The position numbers and the translations under genes were made by a program. 64,000 nt of DNA from Epinephelus fuscoguttatus. Its lineage: Eukaryota > Chordata > Actinopteri > Perciformes > Serranidae. Numbering within the stretch: position 1 is the first letter of the stretch; each line of letters opens with the position of its first letter. The stretch is from contig NC_064772.1 in the NCBI RefSeq assembly GCF_011397635.1, positions 15,949,035 through 16,013,034 of the forward strand, in the 5' to 3' direction. Under the pieces are notes generated by a model. The model was not told the origin of the DNA, did not search any database, and saw only the letters and a list, made by a program, of their open reading frames with translations. Shown here one piece after another: positions 7,701-47,016 of the stretch.

Positions 7701-8567
7701 GGAAAATAGATCTCCAATTTGTTTGCTTTTGCTTCCTCTCTGGTGATACCCTTTGATTATATTTGTATTGGGAATTGGACTTCTAGCAGGCATCAGCTTT
7801 ATCAAACAGGGTTTGCAAACATAGCCAAACATGCAAAAAATCATTTGCCTGAGTTTTATCTAAGTTGAAGATGTCCAACTGATAAACTGTTGAGAGAAGG
7901 TGATTCTGCAGAAACTGCCAGATGCACGTCACAGGAAGTCTACAAGGTAATAAAACAAGATAGTAAGGAGTGGGTGTGAACTGCACTGCGCTGATCCTGC
8001 TATCAAAGGTCTGACAGCTCACCGAGAATCACTGATACAGTTGCACGATCACGTCAAAGCTCACAATTACAATATATGGATGGCGACGTGATGACAGCAA
8101 GGGCTGGGTGCTTGTTGTCTGAACTGAGGCCACGGCCTGATAGTCTTTTTACTTAAGAAAGTTTCAACTGAGTGGAAGTAGCAGCCATGATAAGAGCTGG
8201 TTGAATTCTCTAAACGCTAAGAAAAGGTGCTTCAATGCTTCCTTACCTCCTTAAGCACAGAGTACACTGGACCATCCCTTGCAAAGGGAAAAGAGATAAT
8301 GCCATCCCAAAATTCCTTTATTTTAAATTACATTTAAAGCAATACAACATACTGATGTTCATGAAAACAAACTATATGCTTTAATCTATCTTGTATAAAA
8401 TTATTATTTTCAGACAATCATACCAACTGGGATTCGTGTTGATGAATATGAGTGCACAGGAGGGTGAGTGTGCAAAAGTGAGTAACCATTCTAAATAGAG
8501 AGGCACTGATCGATGGGCTGGTGACTGGAATTGACCAGTCTTACCCTTTTTCCACTAAGATAAACGT
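4743..8567. other. Putative slc4a2 leader followed by repeat-bearing non-coding DNA
   Basis: Directly upstream of the MSE exon (minus strand, about 4743-5060) the base composition is more GC-rich and could be 5' UTR or promoter, but no TATA box or transcription start can be fixed. From 6740 to 7105 there is a dispersed repeat marked by GCTAACATGCTCACAAGGACAATG, TTTAGCATGCTAACATTTGC and TTCCATCCAATAGCTCTTGAG; the same words recur at 16830-16860 and 23470-25025. No gene recognised. Confidence 0.5.
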
Positions 8568-8575
8568 GTACGCAG

Positions 8576-9624
8576 TAGGGCCGTAACGGTACGTGTATTT
8601 GTGTCGAACCGTTCGGTACCCGACTTTCGGTTCAGCACGACCCTGTACTGAATTATTGGGTGCAAGACATTATTTTATTTTATTTTGTTTTATTTTAATT
8701 CCATTTTTGCGAGCCGAACCATTTAAAATATCTAGTTCCCCAACGGACATAATTGAGTGACGGACCGAGTCCGACCGTAAATCTCCGCCTTCACTTTGTG
8801 CAGCGCATTCTCGTATTTTGACATGGCAAGTGAGCCTGACGAACCTCAAGACCCACCCGCAAACCTTAAGTTCTCCGTTCGGGAACACTTTGGTTTCAGG
8901 GTAAAATACGAAGATGGAAATAAACAAGTGGACAAGACAAAAGCAGTGTGCCGACACTGCAGAACAGCGGTCGGGTATGTACTTGGAAACACGTCTAACA
9001 TGCTAACGCATCTAAAGCGACACCACCCGAGTTTGAACGTTAACCGGCACGACTAGAAAGAGCAATCTGGTACAAACTACGATATTGTCGTCATTTAAAA
9101 CGAAAGAGCGTTTCCCTGACCATTCTGATCCACTAAATAACCAACGCCATTGGAGTGTTGTTTAAGCTGCACTTTAGATATTGAAGCATGTTTTGTTTAC
9201 TGCACTTTAACAAAGTGGGAAAGCTAAGTAAGTTCCTAGTAAAACTGAATCTGAGCAGGCTTTAAAGCTGACCAGCTGCACTATACTTTTTATTTTATTT
9301 GAGTAAAACTGTTAAAGCAGAAATTTATATTTATATTTCTCATTCAAAAAATGTGTTTAAAAAAAACAGCAGGATTTCATTTTTCACTTTTATATTTCTA
9401 TTTTCATTCAAACAATGTGAAAAAGCAGGATTTTATATATATATTTGTTCCATTCAAAAATTGTGTAAAAAGAGTTAACTGCTGTGGTGTTACATTTTAA
9501 TAAGGTTACCAATAAGTAAAAGATATTTAATAGTTGTCTATTTTTTTCATTACTGTACCGAAAAAAAACGAACCGTGACTTGTGTACCAAGGTACATACC
9601 AAACTGTGACTTTTGTGTACCCTA
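8576..9624 (+). mobile_element. Non-autonomous hAT transposon carrying a BED-finger ORF
   Basis: The element begins TAGGGCCGTAACGGTAC and ends GTGTACCCTA, and is flanked on both sides by the identical 8-bp duplication GTACGCAG (8568-8575 and 9625-9632). Eight-bp duplications and TAGGG...CCCTA ends are typical of hAT elements. The inner ends repeat 'GAACCG/CGGTTC' and 'GGTAC' words in inverted order. At 1049 bp it is far shorter than an autonomous hAT and lacks the catalytic and dimerisation domains; only an N-terminal BED zinc-finger ORF remains. Confidence 0.88.
8823..9056 (+). CDS. BED-type zinc-finger remnant of a hAT transposase (77 aa)
   Basis: The ATG at 8823 (MASEPDEPQDPP) opens an uninterrupted 77-codon frame ending in TAG. 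It contains AVCRHCRTAV and NMLTHLKRHHPS, which gives C43-x2-C46 with H63 and H67: the zinc ligands of a BED finger, the DNA-binding domain at the N terminus of many hAT transposases and ZBED proteins. The RNase H-like catalytic fold is absent. The frame is open with no stop or frameshift across the finger. If transcribed it could make a small DNA-binding protein; more simply it is the first exon of a deleted transposase. Its start is ambiguous, since the frame is open 27 nt further upstream. Confidence 0.65.
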   Translation: MASEPDEPQDPPANLKFSVREHFGFRVKYEDGNKQVDKTKAVCRHCRTAVGYVLGNTSNMLTHLKRHHPSLNVNRHD

Positions 9625-31960: not shown

Positions 31961-32649
31961 ATTAGTAGTTAATGGAAACAGTTGCTCTATACAGGAACAA
32001 GTATATCAATTGTGTAGTCATATTCCTCCAACTTGCCACTGGAAATTTTTTGTATGTCATCATATGACCTGAGAAACAGGGGACATGCCATGCTGCTGTT
32101 GTATCACTGAGCAGTGACTTAATGAATGATGACTGAATGAGATAATCTGTCTCAACACTTCCTTGTTGGAAACCTTGTTCAGATATTTAAGACACCAGAC
32201 AAACGTTGACTCACCCCTGCCAACTCTGTAACGTGACCATCACATTTCTACAGAGCAGCTCCTGTCAGGAGGAGTGACCGCTAGCTTGCTAGGATGAGGA
32301 ACTCCTCCAAACATCACCGTAAATATCATCGTTTACAATCCACCAGTCTGTCAGGAGCCTTAAACCACGACAAAACCATAGACCCGAGCACATTTCCAGG
32401 ACTTCATCCTCTCTGTTACCTGATTAATAAACCGAAGAACAAAGCGAAGTCATCCACCAGCGGCAACAGCGGACACTTTCATGCATGTGTGGCAGTTGGT
32501 GCCGCCTCTCTTCACGGGAAAATATGTCAACAGTCAAAACCAGTTCGTGGCCTTCGAAATATCGGTAGTTGAAAGAAAAAACGCGTTTGAGCGAAGTGAA
32601 ATCCTTCTGAGGCTTAAAATCACACACACATACTGGGTTATTTACTCAC

Positions 32650-32740
32650 CGGTGCCTGGTACTCACCTCAAACTCTCTGAATGACTAGCTCAACCGGCGT
32701 CAAAGAGCTAATTATAAACACCTAGACTTCCGGTACAAAT
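32650..32740 (-). promoter_or_regulatory. Promoter-like patch with ETS-type site and two good splice donors (minus strand)
   Basis: On the minus strand ACCGGAAGT (CCGGAAGT at 32733-32726, a consensus ETS/GABPA site often found near start sites of TATA-less promoters) is followed within about 70-90 bp by GTTTGAG|GTGAGTACC and then CACCG|GTGAGTAAA. The flanking 400 bp is CpG-richer than its surroundings. This would fit a distal non-coding first exon pointing toward slc4a2. It is a motif-based inference; no cDNA support is available. Confidence 0.3.
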
Positions 32741-33254
32741 TTCAAAATAAAACCCTTTGGGAGGAGCAAAGGCAAATGCGAATTTTTACCACGGCAAAAA
32801 CATTACATTATAATCAATAATGAGCTAATGATATCTAATCTATACGAAAAAATTATAGCATCGCATGACACGGGTATTAACTTCTTTCAAACACCATGTT
32901 GATCCTTTATTTTGAAGGTCACACTAATCAAATTCCGGTTTAAGTCAGTAAATTCTGGCAGCTTGTTGCCATTTCCTCCGGACTCAAATTGTCGCGCCTG
33001 CGTAAATGATGATTCATATTTCTGATGAAGGCCGGAGGGAAATCGGCGTACCGTTATGATGCCTAGGATTAAACATAAGTTAAACGTTTCTTTGTCATAA
33101 TGTGTCAACACATTAAACACGTGATTTTGCATAAATTCAAATGCAATTATTAGATTAATTTACAGTATATTTCCGTATTAGCTATTCATGATGTAGGTAG
33201 TTATCCCAGCAAAGCTCAGTTCCTTCTCCTGAAAGACTTGACACTGTTGTGGCA

Positions 33255-36895: not shown

Positions 36896-39800
36896 ATGAG
36901 TTCCGCTGGTCCTCCGGTAAGCTGCAAACCGCCGAGCTGCCTTTGACATGACACTGCTGACTGCACACAATTATTAGCTTGCTAGCTGCTCTCGCGTTAG
37001 CATCGCCATCGCTCTCCCTCGGCTAACCGTTAGCCGCCATGCTAACGTTGTTTGTTGACAGCCCTCACTGTACTGTGTGGACATAACAACATACCTAGCG
37101 TTAGCTGAAGGCTAGCTTCACATCTGTTGGTTACTTTAACATCGCTGACTATACTTTGAATGAATGCTTTTACCCTGACAGAGGCTAACTAAAGGCTAGA
37201 AACTTTGTGAACAAACATTAACTTAGAAGCAGAGAGTTTGAAGGCGACACTGCAGGTCAGCTACAGTCAGATAAAATGAAGGACAAAGAAAACCAAATAT
37301 GTAACGCTTAAATACTGTTACTGTTATCGGTAAATAACGTGTACATGAGTTTTAGTTGTAGGTTACAATTATACATTCTCACCAGCACTTAATTACATCC
37401 CTTATGAAGTGTTAATTTTACATTTCTGTTAATTATTTTGATATTTCTTTGATAATTAACCATTTTACTTGCAGATATGAAACATTAATGTCAGGACAAA
37501 GCTAATTTATTAGATAATAGTAACAAATTAAACAACAATAATAGCTAATTTTATAAAAAATGAAAGACAAGCCATGTGATATAAATTACATAAAAACACA
37601 TAAATAATAACTTAGAATAAAGTATAAAAGTAGGACCACAATCAGAAGATACATATTTTATTCTTACTATCTTATTAGTTTTTAATATTGTGGCATAATG
37701 CACATTTTTATTTTTATTTTATTTTATTTTATTTCATACTCTTACTTGTTAAAATTATCTATTTTTTTTACATTGGAGTGACTGTAATGAATCACAATTT
37801 TCCCTCTAGGATTGATAAAGTATTTCTGATTTAAATTTAATATGTACTGAATATACAAGTACAATTATGTCCTACAATGCATTATACATAAGTACTGGAA
37901 ACTTAGTAGATAATGTTATATGCTGTAAAACATGGTGCAGTATTGTTCTCGGTAGGATTGCACAACAACTAAATAAAACCCATATTACAGTTATTTTTGA
38001 CAGATACTGAGATTGCGATATGAGTCATGATTTAAGTGGGAATGATATATTTTACATTTCATTTTCACTAAAATAAATAAATAAATAAATAAAATTATGT
38101 TTCCTTGCATCTTGAATAGGATTTGTAGGCCTGGGCATCTCCGTAAATCCATGATATTTCATTTATAATGGTATGATGTGACACATTTTACTTTTATGTC
38201 TAGATATTGCACTTTGCCATACTGCCATTTCGATAATAATTCCATTAATTGTGCAGCCTTAGTCCTTATAACCAGATAATTAATTGATTAATTAATTGGA
38301 TAGTGGTGTTGGCAAATCAGACAAAGCAGTAATAAAACTATAGTGGGGACCAAAGCTAAGTGAAAACAATTGTAAAATGTTTTTAATGCATTATAAACAA
38401 TATTTCTGAGTTAGTTAACCTGACCTTCGGTGTCAGTACATAAAGGTGGATTATCTGTAGTCTGAAAAATTCCTTTCAGTGTTACTTAACACATCAGGAG
38501 CCAGTAACCATTGTTTGTGCAATCACTGATAAGAGAAAAACAACCACAAAGGTCAACCCTTGTTTACATGTCTTTTTGATGCCTGCCACAACCCGATCTG
38601 TAAAGGTCGTCCTGTCGATCCTTATGGGAAATCCAATTTGTTCATGTCCTATCTCCTGACCGATCCTGACCCTACCCATTCAATTTCAATGCCTAACCCC
38701 GACCATCTTTGCACATGCAAAAAACAAATGGGGTGTCTGGTACAGATCAGACTGTGTCAATGCCTATTTGATTTGCTTGTTTTGCAGACGATTGGGGATT
38801 TATTCCTCATCCTCAGCGAGATGGGGTTCTCACAGGAACAGATCCAGGCAGCTGTACAGGCAGGGCATTTTTCTGTGTCAGATGCGGCTGAGTGGTGAGT
38901 TGTCCCAGCTCTTGTCACTAATATAATTCCCCTTCCCCTTCTTCAAGACCCCTATATTCTGTAAATTGCTTATATGTCCACCTCTCATATGTTTACAGGC
39001 TCTTGCAGGGTCAGTTTCCACGGCACAGGTTGGTCAAGCATCCATCACAGCCAGCTGAGACAGCATTTTCTGCTTTCAACCCACCCAAAGAGGCAGCAGG
39101 CACTTCAGAGACACAGAAATCTCCTTCTGACAGCAGAGGTATAACACCAAGCTAAAGACTGGGTTTGCTTTGAAGGATAGAGGGCCAGTAATATCCTCTG
39201 TGTCTTTGTAATCATGTCCTTGAAGTTTAACAGTTTTTTACTTAAACAGCATCCCCTTCACTGGTGCTGAGACCATCAAAATCAGGTGCCCTGTCCCCAG
39301 AGCCGCTACCAGTCGAGTCTCGAATCAAACAGGACAAGAGTGACTTTGAAGAGCAGCAGAGACAACGTGTTGCGCAGGAGGCCAGAGCAGAGAGAAGACA
39401 AAAGAAACAGGTCAGCAGTGTTGAAAAAACAGACGTCTTGTACTTGTTCCAACTCAGCTGCACTGGCAATTTGATTGTTATCACACAGAGAGCAAAATAT
39501 TTGAAGTGTCGGATTTGTAATCTCAGACTAGAACATCTTGTCTCATGTGTGCTCTTTCTGCCAGGAGCGTGAGTTGGTGTTGAAGCGGATAGCTGAGGAT
39601 CGGAGGAGCTTGCAGGAGAAGAACCAGGGCAGCGCTGCCACAGAGACGTCTCCTCCCAGTGGTCAGGGGCAGAGGCTCGGAGGAAAGATTCAGACTAATG
39701 TGGACAACAACTGCGTCCTCATGGTGGGGCGATGACGCATTTTAATTTACATGTGTGTATGAGGTATATACAGTAAAATTGCAGTTGTTTAAACTTATGT

Positions 39801-42800
39801 TTTTTTTGCTGCAGATTCGGCTCCCATCCGGCGAGTCCATGCGTGAGCGTTTCCCAGCTGATGCTCCTCTGCGCAGCGTTGTGGAGCACATCACCGGACG
39901 CCACCCCTCTCTACCCTCCTTTTCCCTCCTCCAGGGTTTTCCACGGAAACGCTTTGGCGAGGCAGAGCTTGCCTGTTCGCTGCGCACTCTTGGCCTCACG
40001 CCCAACGCTGCGCTGTGTATTCAGACCACTCCACCAGAGACACCCCAGGATCCTCAGAGTCCTGCAGATCCACCATCAGTGGGACAGAATGTCCTGTCTC
40101 CTTGTGATGTGTCTCCTCAGCCACAGATCCCTGTCCTGGAGAGGGCGAGAGGACAAGACCGTGTTCTGCCTCCTCCACTACCCAACCAGCTGTGGGAGGA
40201 GGCTGTGAATTACGCAGGGATACCTGGAGCTGGTCCCTCACTCTCTGGGCCGTCTCACTTCTGGGGTAGGTTTAAAGACCATGTAAAAAAAAACAAAAAA
40301 ACCCTTAACAAGTCACAAATTTGTAAGAAAATTTTTAACAGATTTGCTGCTGTACCTCACAAATGTTTATTCATCAAAGCTTGTTTGTTGTGTACAGTTA
40401 AAGGACTTTAGTAGCCCATACAGTTGCTTTATAGAGTTGCAAAGTGGGAAGCACTGCTGGTTCTGAAAGTATATTTCCCAATATAAATTCCGATTCTAAG
40501 TTTTTGTTTTAATGATTTCCTTAGTGCCACTCAACATAGAAACATGGGATTCTTCCAGATGATGCTACAGTCATAATTTAGGGCTGTGTGTTGGCAACAA
40601 TCTGGGTATATGATCATGATATAGGGGCTTCGATTTACTTTACTGCAATACTGTAAGCCAAGGCAATATATTGTGTTTTTTTTCTTATGGGATAAAGAGC
40701 ACACCCCCATATGCATAAAATCTGAGTAAAAAACTTCTTTTATTTATCACAGTCCCTGCAACATCCAACATCATAGTGCTAATTTTTGTGCAGTCGGAGC
40801 AAAGGAATTAATATTTGCCTTCATCAGTAAAAAGTAATTGAAATAAATCACTGCTATCTAGAGATCTGGGGTTTAAACAACACAAAGAAAACCACTGCCA
40901 CACATCTTTGCATGTAAATTACTGCTTAAAAATCGATACAGTATCACAAAACATAATATCGCAATACTCAAGTGTATCGATGTTGCGCTTCTCCAATCAA
41001 AGCGCTTTTACACTACGGAGCCACATTCACCCATTCACACACACACAATCACACACTGGTGACCAACCCACCTGCTCACACGCACTCACACCGAGCAACT
41101 TGGGGTTCAGTATTTTGCCCAAGGATAATTTGACATGATGATCAGCGGAGCCAGGAATCAGACTGCCAATCCTCCTATCCCTAGTGAATGACCTCCTGAG
41201 CTACAGCTGCCCTGGCTCAACAAACCAGTCAGAGGCATGAATCAGAATAGTAGGAAATATAAAATGCTTTGTTGTTGCAGGTGACATAGTTGCTGGATTT
41301 GTACAAAATTAATCTAAAAGTAAACTAAGTTAGGTGCAGATTGTGTGTTTAGTTTTCTCATAAGTACAGTCTTTGGTATCTGCTCTCCCTCCCCCAAAAT
41401 CACACAGAATTCCCAGCATTATAAGCTCAGTGATCAGATGTTTCTTGCCAAATTGCTCATTGTCATAGTTGATTTCTGTCTTTGTTGTTATGCACACAGA
41501 CCTTAACCTTTGGTGAAAGAATCCCGTTTTTCCTAACCCAGCTTTTCATCTTTTGTCCTGACTGTGATACTTTGATGTTAATCCAAGCTGTAAAAATGCT
41601 CCAACTGTGAGTCACCGTCATTGTATACGGAGAACAATAATCTTTTATTTTACTTTCGGGAAAGCTCCGTCACTTTGCAGCTTTATAGGCTCAATTATTT
41701 CAGCATGCCAGAGTGTCGAACATTGTTTAAACGTTATTTAAAAAGCTGTTCAGTCATTAGATGACATTCCTGGTGCTGCTCAACAGGCCGTGGCCAGAGG
41801 TTGGTTCCCGGTAATGCTGAGGAAGCTGCTGGCATCGAGGTTGATGAGGAGCAAGGAGAAGAGGAAGAACCGCCTAACATGCTTAACGGTACGGCTCACT
41901 GTGTCTGGGGTTGTTGCGGACACCTCATCCCTCATTTGACCCACATTTTCCTTGCTTCCCCCCCACCCTCGCTCCTCCCTTTTTCCCGCTTCCATATGTC
42001 TCCATTTAGTCATCCGCAAAAGAACTTTTTGTTCTCCCGGGTCAGAAATGGATAAACCAGGCTTCTCACTTTCAGCTGTTGGATTAACTTTTAATTTACT
42101 GTATGTTGCATAATTTCCTCCGTGTACAGAACATTTGACCGACTTCCCTAGAAATGTGTGTCATATGTTAGAAAGATTAGGATTAGGAAATATGTAGGTG
42201 AATGCCCCTTTCTGTCAAACATAGCACACAGGGTCAGAAGTGCTGAGCCCCACCAGTGAGAACTGATTTCTGTAAGTGCTCACAGCCAGTCAGCCAATCA
42301 TACTCAGTCTTTCAGAGCATGTGGTTCTGATATAGTATTCTCAATGTATGCCAGACCTGAGAGTGGAAAGAGCTCAGTCTCAGCTGAAGCTGGAAAGAGG
42401 AGAATCAAAGACCCAGAACTGAAGATGTTGGTGTTAATTAGAGGTGTGGGATATAAAAGTGCAACTGGACAGATGTTATATTAATAGGCCTGTGACTTAA
42501 ACCGTGTTAATACAGGCTGGTGTCAATTTCAGCTTGGTGATGTCAGAATATTCTTATGAATTACAGTTGAAAATTGTGTCATTTTCACAGGAATGCCGAG
42601 GCTGCCTTTCTTTCCAGAGAACCGGATTCGTGGAGAATTTGAGCCCAGACACCACTGGCCAGAGCAAGGCAATCGACTCAGGTGGGTGTGTAGACAGAGT
42701 GGTGCTAATATAATTTGAAAACTGTAATGCACATACGTTGATGCAACTTTATATGTATTGAAGATGAAAAATTTTCCTCTTTCTTTTCCTCCATTGATTT

Positions 42801-44041
42801 GAAAGTGTTTTGCAGCTATTGATTCAGTCTAAAGATCCCCTGTGCTGGCCTTTGACAAATTTAGCCAATTTTTACTGTATTTTGATGAGAGCTGAAGTCA
42901 ATAAATCATGTAATTGATGAACAGAAAATTAATCTGCAACTATTTTGATAACTAAATAATTACTTGAGTCATTTGCAAAAATGCAATGCAGTGTTTGTTG
43001 TAGCTTCTCAAATGTGAGCATGTGCTGCTTTTCCTGCTTTCCTGAATATTTTGGCTCGTGAGACAAAGGGACCTATGTCACACCCAGTGCAGAGTGGCAC
43101 AAGGCACAGCGCAACTTTAATTGCTAGTTTTAGACTCACGCAGTTTTCAATTTCACAGCCAGCACCTACATTGTGTAAATAGCAAATGTACTTGCGCCCA
43201 TTTTTGTGCCGTGGGTGTTTAGATCTTTAAATGAGGTGTGGCAGGTGCATTGTTGGTGTATTGTTGGCGCGTCACGTTGTTGGCGATTGCACCATTGACC
43301 GACCAACAAAAACCTGGTCCAAAGTCAGTAGCACTGTATTTCCTGCATTTAAGGGTGCATTATTCAGATAGTAAGATGTGCCTACATAGGTGACTTCACA
43401 ATGGGCTTTTAAAGGGGAGGTAGATGACACTGATCGGTTGAACTCACATGTTACACTACAACACACCTATGTTAAATTCAGGTACTAAATACAATCCCTT
43501 TGCCCCTTGTGTCTCACTGTGCGCCTCGATTATGCGCTGTTTAACTAGCAAAAGTGGAGCTGGACACTACCTTAATGCACTTGCGCCATACACTTTAGAC
43601 TGTGTACTATAGTTTGCTAAAATAGGGCCCAAACTGAGACATTTGAAGATGTCAGCTTGGGCTGAGGGAAGCTATGATGGACATTTTATAGAGCAAACAA
43701 CTTATTGAGAACATTTTGTTATCCTAATTAATGCATTAGAAATTGTTACCATCAGTGACATGCTTTTTTAAATCCATCGGTATGTGTGTTACCTTTTAAA
43801 CAGGGTCTGTTTGCTAAGCTTAAATGTTCTCTTACAGCAACGGTATGTGAGATAATTAGTCATTAGACAGGAAGCTAGAGAAAGATTATTGATTACAGTC
43901 TTCAAGTGTTTCCAGTTGAATTTAAGCAGTAGAGAGGAATACAGACAAAAATTGCTGGCATTATGTGGAGATGGATGTTTGTTTTTACATAATTTGAACA
44001 TATACTGTTTTACATGTTAATTAAATTCAGCAAAAAGACAG

Positions 44042-44098
<57 letters not shown>

Positions 44099-47016
44099 TC
44101 AGAGAGGCTCCAGAAGAGGACCCCGCAGAGCCTGAAGATGCAGGAGGTCGGGCAGCGCCTGGAGCTGCAGGTCAGGCTGCAGTGGAGCGTCTTCAGAGAG
44201 CTGCACAGCAAGAAGACCCTCGTGCATCCCAGGGACAACCGTCACCCCCTAAAAGACCCTTCAGGGCACCCAGCGTGCCGTCCCTATGTGCCTTGGCCAC
44301 CCGTGCAACTGTCCACCTCATGACTGGTAAAATAATCACTTGGAAGACTGACTTTCCAGGAAATGTGTCCCACTACTTTATTTACTCACTGTTGCCATTC
44401 TCGGCCCTGTCTCTCTACTCTCAGCTCCTAGCATGCAGTACAGCAGCAGCCTGGCATGCCTCACCCCGGAGCTTGCGGAGCTTCTGCTCAACCACATGTC
44501 CCGTGAGAGGCTCCTGCGTCCCCGCACCTTGGAGCTCTTCTTCGGCTGCCCGTTGCAGAAGTTTGTCCTGAACAACTACCCTTACTCCACCAATGAGCTC
44601 CTGCGGCAGTTACGGGCCTTCACAGCGCTGAAGCATCTGAGTCTGGTCAACTCACCTCTAATCACTGGTACAGATTTTAGGATGGAGCTCTTAGTTTTTC
44701 CACATATCATTTTTTTCTGTGTTAACTTATACAGTATATTTCAGTTAGTGTGCTGTTTGATTGTAAACTTTTAATCTTTCTTTTTCCAGACTCTGGGCTG
44801 TCAATCCTGTCCAGCCTGATCAAACTCCAGTACCTTAACCTGGCCTCCTGTAGCAAACTGACCGACTCCTGTCTGCTGCATATCACAGGTTAGACTTCCT
44901 ACAAACTGTCTTGTGAACAAGGCTCAGATTGTTACCACAGGGGATAATAGATTATGTAACCCCACTGTATAGGTGACTACAATTACGTGCAAGAACGCCA
45001 GATCCCAACATAAGCTGCTCAGGGTTACAGGGATAGTTTGGACTTTTTGACGTGAGGTTGTGTGAGGTATTTAACCACAGTCAGTGGATTACCTACAGTA
45101 GCTGCTGGTTAGCACGCCTCCAGTTTAGAGAAGCAGGCAGGAGTACTGCTACTGAAGCTAAGCAATGTACTGCTGTGGACAGGGGCAGCAGCAACACATG
45201 TTTCAGCCTCCTGAACATGTCAGTATCAGTTTAAGTGGAAGCTATATTTAGAATATTTTCACCACTTTACCTTGCCATCACACAGCTTCTATGCTCTCTT
45301 CAAATCAACCTCATACAACCCAGCTTCAAAGAATCCGAACTAAACCTTGAGTATGTGTATTTAGCATTGAAGGGTTTTTTGCCTTGATATTTCTTTGCCA
45401 CATATTAACACATTATTTCTCTACTTTCTGTCTCAAGGTTTGAAAAGCCTGTGTTTCCTGTCCCTGGACCAGACAAAAGTGACAGATGCTGGGATGGTAC
45501 TATATCTTCAGTCAGCTCCATCTTCTCTCTCTCAGCTCAGCCTGAACCAGACGGCTGTGACTGAAGCCACACTGGTGGTCCTGCGCGCCTGCGTGCCACA
45601 ACTGCGGCTCCTCAGCATCAAGCACACTAAGGTGACTTCAGCTCTGTGGGCACATCTGGCACGTGAATCATGCAGTTGTGTCTGTTCATGTTCTGCACGT
45701 TATTTCTTTTCTCATGACATTTCTCTGTGTTGATTGGTGATGTTCTGGTAGGTCAGGGATGTGTCAGCTCTGGCAGAAATGTCCAGCCTGCAGACTCTCA
45801 ACCTGGATGGGACAGGTGTGACGGAGAGCTCCCTGGAGCACCTGGCCACCCACCCTGCCCTGTCTTCCCTCAGTTTGGCAGGAATCCCCATAGCGGATGG
45901 CAATCAGGCCCTGCAGATCATCTCAGGTTTGTAAATGGGAAGGGACATTCAAAACTAAGCAGACAGACCGTAAAACAAAATGGTTCACGTCTTAAAGTAG
46001 GTTTCTTCTTTCCTCCCAGGTCTTAAGTTGACTCAGCTGACCCTTCCTGGGCGCCACTCTGTGACAGACAGTGGGTTGTCATTCCTCTCTAGACTGTCTC
46101 TGCTCTCAGAGCTGGACCTGACAGACTACACACAAGTCACAGACCAAGGAGTCAGCCAGCTCTCCACCATGAACAGGTCATTCCCACACTCTGTAACTGC
46201 ACTGTACAGCACATGCAGGTCATTCTAACAGTAGTGTCGGTGTTGAGTACAACAGAAATGTCATCAGGAGTATTTGTACTTTGTGTAGGTTGAAGAAGCT
46301 GTCACTTAGCAACACGCAGGTGACAGATGCGGGGCTTCCCTCGCTGCGTGGCCTGCAAGAGCTGCAGGAGCTCTGTTTGGACCGAACAGCAGTCACCAGC
46401 CGAGGAGTGGCCGAACTCATCACCTGTCTGCCGCACCTCCAGGTGATTTTACTGCTGATAGTTCTGTCAACTGCCTTGTACAAGCTTAGCTGAAGAAAAG
46501 AAAAACAGAAATAAAGAAAATAGTCCCTACATGAAACTGCTTTCTAATTTTGGGATGCACTGTCCCTTTAAGGTATCTGAAAAGATCTCATTTCATATGC
46601 TTATTTTGCTGATGTTAATGTTTTTGCTCTGTGTTTTTAGGTGTTGGGGTTAGCCAGCACTCAGGTGGGGGACACAGTCGTGAAGAGAGGTCTGATCCGT
46701 TGCAAGGAGCTTGTGAAGCTGAATCTCAGCCGTACACGGATCACAGACCACGGTAAGGTCAAACTCTCTCATCACTGGCCCCTTCTTCACCTGATTCTTT
46801 TCTTACATACATTCTTTGAACTTGTACATGTTTTCCTCAGGTCTGAAGTTCCTGAAACACATGCACCTGGCTCAGGTGAACCTGGACGGCACCGGTGTGA
46901 CTCTGATGGGCATTGCGAGCCTCCTCTCCTTCACCAACATCAGCAGCATTCGGGCCAGCAACACTCGCAGCATTCCTCCTGACGAGGTCTCGGATGAGGA
47001 GTGGGAAGCCCAGTAA
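36896..47016 (+). CDS. UBA-UBX-leucine-rich-repeat protein (921 aa, 17 exons), probable p97/VCP adaptor
   Basis: Exons: 36896-36916, 38788-38894, 38999-39138, 39250-39410, 39565-39723, 39815-40265, 41787-41888, 42591-42681, 44103-44326, 44425-44667, 44790-44888, 45438-45631, 45752-45926, 46020-46176, 46289-46442, 46641-46752, 46841-47016. All junctions are GT/AG and the sum is 2766 nt. Residues 8-50 form a UBA domain (MGF loop at 19-21, ending AAEWLLQ). Residues 112-165 are a charged helix (EEQQRQRVAQEARAERRQKK). Residues 185-267 are a UBX domain with the p97-contact motif GFPRKRF (FPR at 238-240). A Pro-rich linker, SHFWG and an acidic stretch follow, then a helical block with YPYSTNELLRQL (about 500-540). 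About a dozen LRRs run to about residue 900 (units such as LKKLSLSNTQVTDAGLPSL), of the VTDAGL type seen in AMN1/FBXL proteins. The N-terminal half resembles UBXN1 (UBA, coiled coil, UBX). The UBA should bind ubiquitin and the UBX domain p97; LRRs may select substrates. I know no named human orthologue. Confidence 0.9.
40900..41220. repeat. Dispersed repeat (GAGCAACTTGGGGTTCAGT...CTGAGCTACAGCTGCCC) in intron 6 of the UBX-LRR gene
   Basis: ATTCACACACACACAATCAC, GAGCAACTTGGGGTTCAGTA, TTTTGCCCAAGGATAATTTG and CTCCTGAGCTACAGCTGCCC form a block I recognise as a very common fish repeat, probably the 3' end of a non-LTR retrotransposon. Non-coding. Confidence 0.55.
43070..43631. mobile_element. MITE with GGGMCCTAT ends nested in another repeat (intron 8 of the UBX-LRR gene)
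   Basis: The left end GGGACCTATGTCAC and right end CTAAAATAGGGCCC are inverted. It splits a repeat whose halves are at about 42890-43069 (TTCTCAAATGTGAGCATG, GTGAGACAAA) and 43632-43700 (AAACTGAGACATTTGAAGATG, TCAGCTTGGGC). The interior is rich in 'gcgc' words. No ORF. Confidence 0.55.
44043..44094 (+). repeat. (TG)26 microsatellite abutting a splice acceptor
   Basis: A pure TG run of 52 nt is followed by TTTTTC and the AG at 44101-44102 of exon 9 of the UBX-LRR gene. The usual polypyrimidine tract is thus six pyrimidines plus UG repeat. Confidence 0.95.
45015..45320. repeat. Dispersed repeat, copy 1 of 2 (intron 11 of the UBX-LRR gene)
   Basis: AGAAGCAGGCAGGAGTACTG, AGCAGCAACACATGTTTCAG and ATTTAGAATATTTTCACCAC match 56505-56640 (AGAAGCAGACATAAGTACTG, AGCAGCAAAACATATTTTAG, ATTTAGAACATTTTCACTGC). 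The left edge, GGGATAGTTTGGACTTTTTG, is a common teleost repeat start. Confidence 0.65.
46518..46573. repeat. Fragment of the foldback MITE family in intron 15 of the UBX-LRR gene
   Basis: CCTACATGAAACTGCTTTCT matches CCTACATGAAACTGCTCACA at 477-496, and TGCACTGTCCCTTTAA matches the family end. Only the right end remains. Confidence 0.6.

Follow-up and report, generated by a model that had tools for sequence, protein, structure and literature searches.

How p97/VCP chooses among its clients is still an open question, and many of its adaptors are read as ubiquitin readers. A gene of Epinephelus fuscoguttatus bears on this question: the window analysed here, a stretch of 64,000 nucleotides (nt) from contig NC_064772.1 (assembly GCF_011397635.1, positions 15,949,035 to 16,013,034 of the forward strand), holds on its plus strand a gene whose predicted protein joins a UBX domain to an array of leucine-rich repeats (LRRs). 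Is this one gene, and if so, what would its product do? The unusual architecture is most likely that of a p97 adaptor, and we put at roughly two in three the probability that a single gene encodes a cytosolic or nuclear p97/VCP adaptor in which a UBA-UBX-SHP portion is combined with a client-docking LRR arm.

Gene model and domain architecture

The coding model, spliced from the genomic sequence, begins with an ATG at 36896 and ends with a stop codon at 47016; GT-AG borders are present at all 16 introns, and the 17 exons join into 2766 coding nt, or 921 amino acids (aa), in one open frame with a single, terminal stop. Guanine plus cytosine (GC) content at codon positions 1, 2 and 3 of the coding exons is 0.63, 0.47 and 0.61, against 0.378 in the introns. 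By a rough matrix typed from general knowledge, 12 of the 16 donors rank above the 94th percentile of the region's 740 GTs, the weakest being those of exons 10 (80.5), 3 (86.5), 14 (89.1) and 9 (92.2). We regard the 17-exon model as well supported and its architecture as unusual: splicing confirms the complete, phase-consistent model proposed by a first-pass annotation of this DNA, and the sequence also supports what it described as one fused gene whose domains run in the order UBA, charged helix, UBX, acidic and proline-rich linker, LRRs.

The same annotation named the UBA, UBX and LRR domains, which fared differently in Pfam (Table 1). The UBX domain lies far above its cut-off of 21 bits and holds an FPR loop; the arginine of the R...FPR signature, which is given for UBX domains in a review of mammalian UBX cofactors (PMC5389986), was assigned by eye to the first strand (IRLPSG). 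LRR_4, LRR_8 and LRR_6 all exceed their cut-offs, which places the protein among the LRR proteins. The UBA is placed as claimed and scores below the cut-off, so that an N-terminal UBA is likely and not formally established. Searched against PDB, the N-terminal half gave 16 sequences at E <= 1, comprising 12 from UBX proteins, 2 UBA sequences and 2 unrelated RipA entries; the best was KIAA0794 (E 2.1e-6), which we take to be UBXN7, with UBXN4 next and UBX domain-containing protein 7, "UBX domain-containing protein 2", FAF1 and others further down. The LRR half matched 35 PDB sequences at E <= 0.001, which are varied LRR proteins with no single near relative. The UBX domain does not lie at the C-terminal end of the 921 aa, the region in which the UBXD family is described as carrying it (PMC8495200); that placement is a usual position and not a function.

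Table 1. Features of the UBX-LRR gene, in window coordinates
Feature	Residues (aa)	Exons	Position	Strand	Basis
Whole coding model	921 in all	17	36896..47016	+	16/16 GT-AG introns, single open frame, no second genomic copy found
UBA-like helix bundle	15-46	2-3	38809..39008	+	Pfam UBA/UBA_7 below cut-off; PDB UBAC1 UBA matches aa 16-46, E 0.049
Charged helix	about 119-163	4-5	39336..39624	+	Read by eye from spliced model
SHP-like stretch SGQGQRLGG, immediately before UBX, lacking the aromatic residue	175-183		39658..39684	+	Sequence
UBX domain	191-266	5-6	39706..40024	+	Pfam E 2.5e-15, 56.9 bits
FPR loop	238-240		39938..39946	+	Sequence; R...FPR signature as given in PMC5389986
SHP box FWGRGQRL	345-352	6/7 (spliced)	40259-40265 + 41787-41803 (span 40259..41803)	+	Consensus match
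(GT)26 followed by TTTTTCAG at exon 9 acceptor			44044..44095 for (GT)26; whole tract 44044-44102	+	Sequence
LRR N-cap	471-507	9-10	44281..44489	+	Weak likeness to box-bearing segment of the genome's zyg11-like gene
Leucine-rich repeats, about 14, starts 22-26 aa apart	554 to ~890	10-17	44628..46920	+	Pfam and PDB; 13 starts from sequence patterns, final repeat by eye

A predicted second p97-binding motif created by splicing

Downstream of the UBX domain the protein carries FWGRGQRL, which the first-pass annotation had overlooked and which strengthens the p97 reading. It fits both the strict SHP form FxGxGQR-nonpolar (PMC8495200) and the core F/W(x)0-1GxGxxL, which is among the published consensus forms (PMC8495200, PMC5389986). 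The strict form arose in 6 of 20,000 shuffles of the whole protein, and two GxGQRL stretches together, as in this box and the SHP-like stretch before the UBX domain, in none of 20,000; these figures are somewhat generous, since the exon 7 acceptor at 41787 was picked while the peptide was being read.

Because intron 6 splits its codons, the box exists only when exon 6 is joined to the exon 7 acceptor at 41787. Of 24 AGs in the region 41600-41888 that were tried as this acceptor between fixed neighbouring exons, 6 leave an open frame through exon 9; the five alternatives to 41787 sit, by eye, within purine-rich coding sequence. Use of the downstream acceptors would yield forms without the SHP box, and loss of exon 7 altogether is predicted to keep the frame (887 aa) and to cut the box.

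Proposed mode of action

Published work places UBX domains in the inter-lobe cleft of the p97 N domain and SHP motifs on the far side of its Nc lobe (PMC5042407, PMC5389986). By analogy, the FPR loop of the present protein would enter the inter-lobe cleft of one N domain. The SHP box further along the chain would bind the Nc lobe on its far side, either in that N domain or in a neighbouring one, so that p97 would be held in the bipartite manner of p47/p37, and the UBA at the N-terminus would strengthen the hold on ubiquitylated clients. The C-terminal LRR arc, carried on the long acidic, proline-rich linker, may dock a specific client or client complex above or near the p97 pore. We favour an adaptor with docking near the pore because UBX, SHP, a UBA-like N-terminus and an LRR arm share one protein and because of these known binding modes; p97 binding, ubiquitin binding and client docking are all predicted here from the gene model, its domains and its motifs. 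The earlier proposal that the LRRs pick ubiquitylated clients is likewise conjectural, and the ubiquitin reader would be the UBA, not the LRRs.

SDS22, an LRR protein, offers a published precedent for the docking step. The SHP and UBX of p37 are described as bridging neighbouring N domains, with SDS22 itself docking on p97 (PMC9941556). There an LRR protein lies on a p97 N domain beside an SHP-UBX adapter, and the two belong to different polypeptide chains. If our reading is true, a repeat arm hard-wired to a bipartite p97 anchor would let nature itself test whether clients can be delivered directly, by choice of the arm.

Weighing the reading against its alternatives

Several observations weigh against this reading. 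The gene model has genomic sequence as its evidence, and the SHP box that of one genome. Of 5000 shuffled versions of the protein, 119 held a looser pattern, F.G.G..[LIVMF], as did 41 of 5000 shuffled versions of just the linker; only a proline stands where a hydrophobic residue is expected before the SHP aromatic; just one of the six frame-keeping acceptors, the one giving the longest exon 7, produces the box; and the box follows the UBX domain, the opposite of the order in p47, where SHP precedes UBX. The UBA score is 13.3 bits when the whole protein is scanned and 17.4 for the N-terminus by itself, under a cut-off of 22.4, and UBA_7, at 18.3 bits with the N-terminus alone, is below its cut-off as well. 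Between the two halves, the hexamers AATAAA (40842 and 42900) and ATTAAA (44020) would allow a short transcript with only UBA and UBX.

These poly(A)-like hexamers, the stop that a frame read on beyond exon 6 meets at 40411, and the introns that part the halves (intron 6 of 1521 nt, intron 7 of 702 and intron 8 of 1421) would all suit a pair of transcription units, one for a UBXN1-like UBA-UBX protein and the other for an LRR protein, which the model would have joined artificially. We consider this quite improbable, for the phases of exons 7 and 8 fit the model, no complete SHP box forms unless exon 6 is spliced to exon 7, and exon 9 contains both the acidic linker and the beginning of the LRR N-cap, which ties the linker to the LRRs. 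An internal promoter for a separate LRR gene drew no support from the ratio of observed to expected CpG, which shows no clear CpG-rich stretch ahead of the LRR exons (0.34 at 44001-44500, just before them); the test is a weak one, given that the presumed start of the gene itself reaches only 0.49-0.70 and that 41501-42000 stands at 0.60. Another suggestion is that the protein is no longer linked to p97, the LRRs doing a scaffold task and UBX and SHP being relics, in keeping with the weak UBA and with the missing aromatic residue of the UBX-proximal SHP-like copy. It is unlikely in view of a UBX domain that keeps its FPR and tops the genome's eight single-exon UBX matches, and of the intact SHP core elsewhere in the protein.

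A different possibility accepts the full-length protein and adds a switch. Skipping of exon 9, governed by the (GT)26-T5 acceptor tract, would yield, besides the full-length form, a UBA-UBX-SHP form competing for p97 without an LRR client. The tract lies 7 bases from the exon, and exon 9 measures 224 nt, so that its removal shifts the frame and is predicted to give an immediate stop and a 412-aa product lacking the LRRs; a TG-T tract likewise precedes CFTR exon 9, in intron 8 of that gene. TG repeats are, however, common in fish introns and the short product could be unstable, which leaves regulated skipping a doubtful proposition. Length alleles of the tract could shift splicing at the exon 9 acceptor.

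The LRR N-cap and CUL2 receptors

A more far-reaching variant holds that the LRR arm, which would begin with a divergent Elongin/Cul2 box, derives from a ZYG11/LRR1-like CUL2 substrate receptor and became attached to a p97 adaptor complete with UBA, UBX and SHP. If true, the same polypeptide would ubiquitylate a client and hand it to p97, joining both halves of the degradation relay. The lead comes from a gene that we take to be zyg11-like (L030, C15:24156000-24165400), which has a BC-box-like stretch and a stretch fitting the Cul2-box consensus by eye. In local alignment with its box exon joined to the next exon, a partner picked after inspection by eye and from general knowledge, the N-cap reached a score that 7 of 2000 shuffles equalled (1, 5 and 5 of 2000 in three other settings), compared with 62 of 2000 for the N-terminus of an F-box gene that is presumably FBXL14-like and 1940 of 2000 for reversed zyg11. 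Against 10 frames of at least 130 aa from four of five loci, a set without the box-bearing zyg11 exon, the best comparison had a score that 24 of 200 shuffles attained.

Other results argue the opposite way, and we hold this origin to be very unlikely. The three-setting alignments place the BC-like stretch out of register; a strict BC-box pattern with Cys, written from general knowledge, has 0 matches in the whole protein; and LTPELAELLL (aa 498-507) has, by eye, its proline one place late for the Cul2 box, described as hydrophobic-P-x-x-hydrophobic-x-x-x-hydrophobic (PMC5216831). Searched alone, the N-cap matched no Pfam family and, in PDB, four ribosomal L35/uL29 sequences (best E 0.37), none of them sensible, and an LRR_Zer-1-matching stretch on contig C18 gave nothing clear. 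The protein thus resembles the CUL2 receptors LRR1, ZYG11 and ZER1 in its LRR domain and in the weak N-cap similarity, and differs from them in lacking a strict BC box, a consensus Cul2 box by eye and ARM repeats by Pfam.

Relation to known UBX proteins

Returning to the p97 adaptor reading, the N-terminal portion, with its likely UBA, follows the order UBA, charged helix, UBX of human UBXN1 (SAKS1) and, like it, has an FPR-type loop in the UBX domain. The genome holds a separate gene on contig C9, presumably ubxn1-like, so the LRR-bearing gene would be an addition to ubxn1 and not its replacement. With p47/NSFL1C and p37/UBXN2B the protein shares SHP and UBX, described there as a bipartite p97 module (PMC9941556, PMC5389986) that p47 supplements with a UBA (PMC9941556); unlike them, it shows no SEP domain among the 14 Pfam families found at E <= 1 in the whole protein, carries SHP after UBX and has an LRR arm instead. 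UBXN7, the source of the best PDB match for UBX, combines UBA and UBX, as the present protein probably does; it is described as bridging p97 and neddylated CUL2 and as having UAS and UIM (PMC9358472), neither of which was found here by Pfam at the same threshold.

The first-pass annotation had also stated that the human UBX family includes no LRR member. The one mammalian review consulted on UBX cofactors is consistent with this: "leucine-rich" does not occur in its main text, and its domain legend shows no LRR (PMC5389986). Given that absence, an LRR-bearing p97 adaptor may be an undescribed way of selecting what p97 unfolds, and the gene, if our reading is true, would suggest that vertebrates have UBX proteins beyond the mammalian set. 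In the literature searched for UBX-LRR proteins, none was recognised among the matches listed, judged by titles and abstract openings. The gene is presumably present already in automatic annotations of other fish genomes, with no studied function.

Genomic context

Searches of the fish's own genome covered 1.05 Gb in 26 contigs. The spliced protein gave 17 matches, 16 of them at its own exons, and hence no second copy, within a search that scores best candidates only and could miss a very diverged one. The lone non-self match, weak at E 0.002, lies on contig C22 in an F-box/LRR gene with a single open frame of 402 aa (L025, C22:17525067-17528540), which is the FBXL14-like gene mentioned above. 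A single-exon UBX search found eight places, all over the cut-off, of which the present gene is the best; from their translations and general knowledge we take the others to be ubxn7-, ubxn1-, faf2-, ubxn4- (two exons), p47/ubxn2- and ubxn10-like. A microbial or viral relative was sought in scans with short peptide patterns, which would miss distant LRRs: the LRRs matched 123 stretches of genome_contigs and the whole protein matched 9 of viral_contigs, none of them confirmed.

The gene had been placed between slc4a2 and abcf2. Two minus-strand pieces bear out the ABCF side at family level, ABC_tran passing its cut-off in one of the two and the other having yeast ARB1 as its best PDB match; the other side consists of minus-strand coding exons that we take to be slc4a2-like, with no Pfam family over the cut-off. 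A CHPF/CHPF2-like exon lies on the plus strand. Across the window in 500-base steps, the CpG ratio is highest at 8501-9000 (1.20) and also high at 32501-33000 (1.06), and these two steps are possibly promoters on the slc4a2 side.
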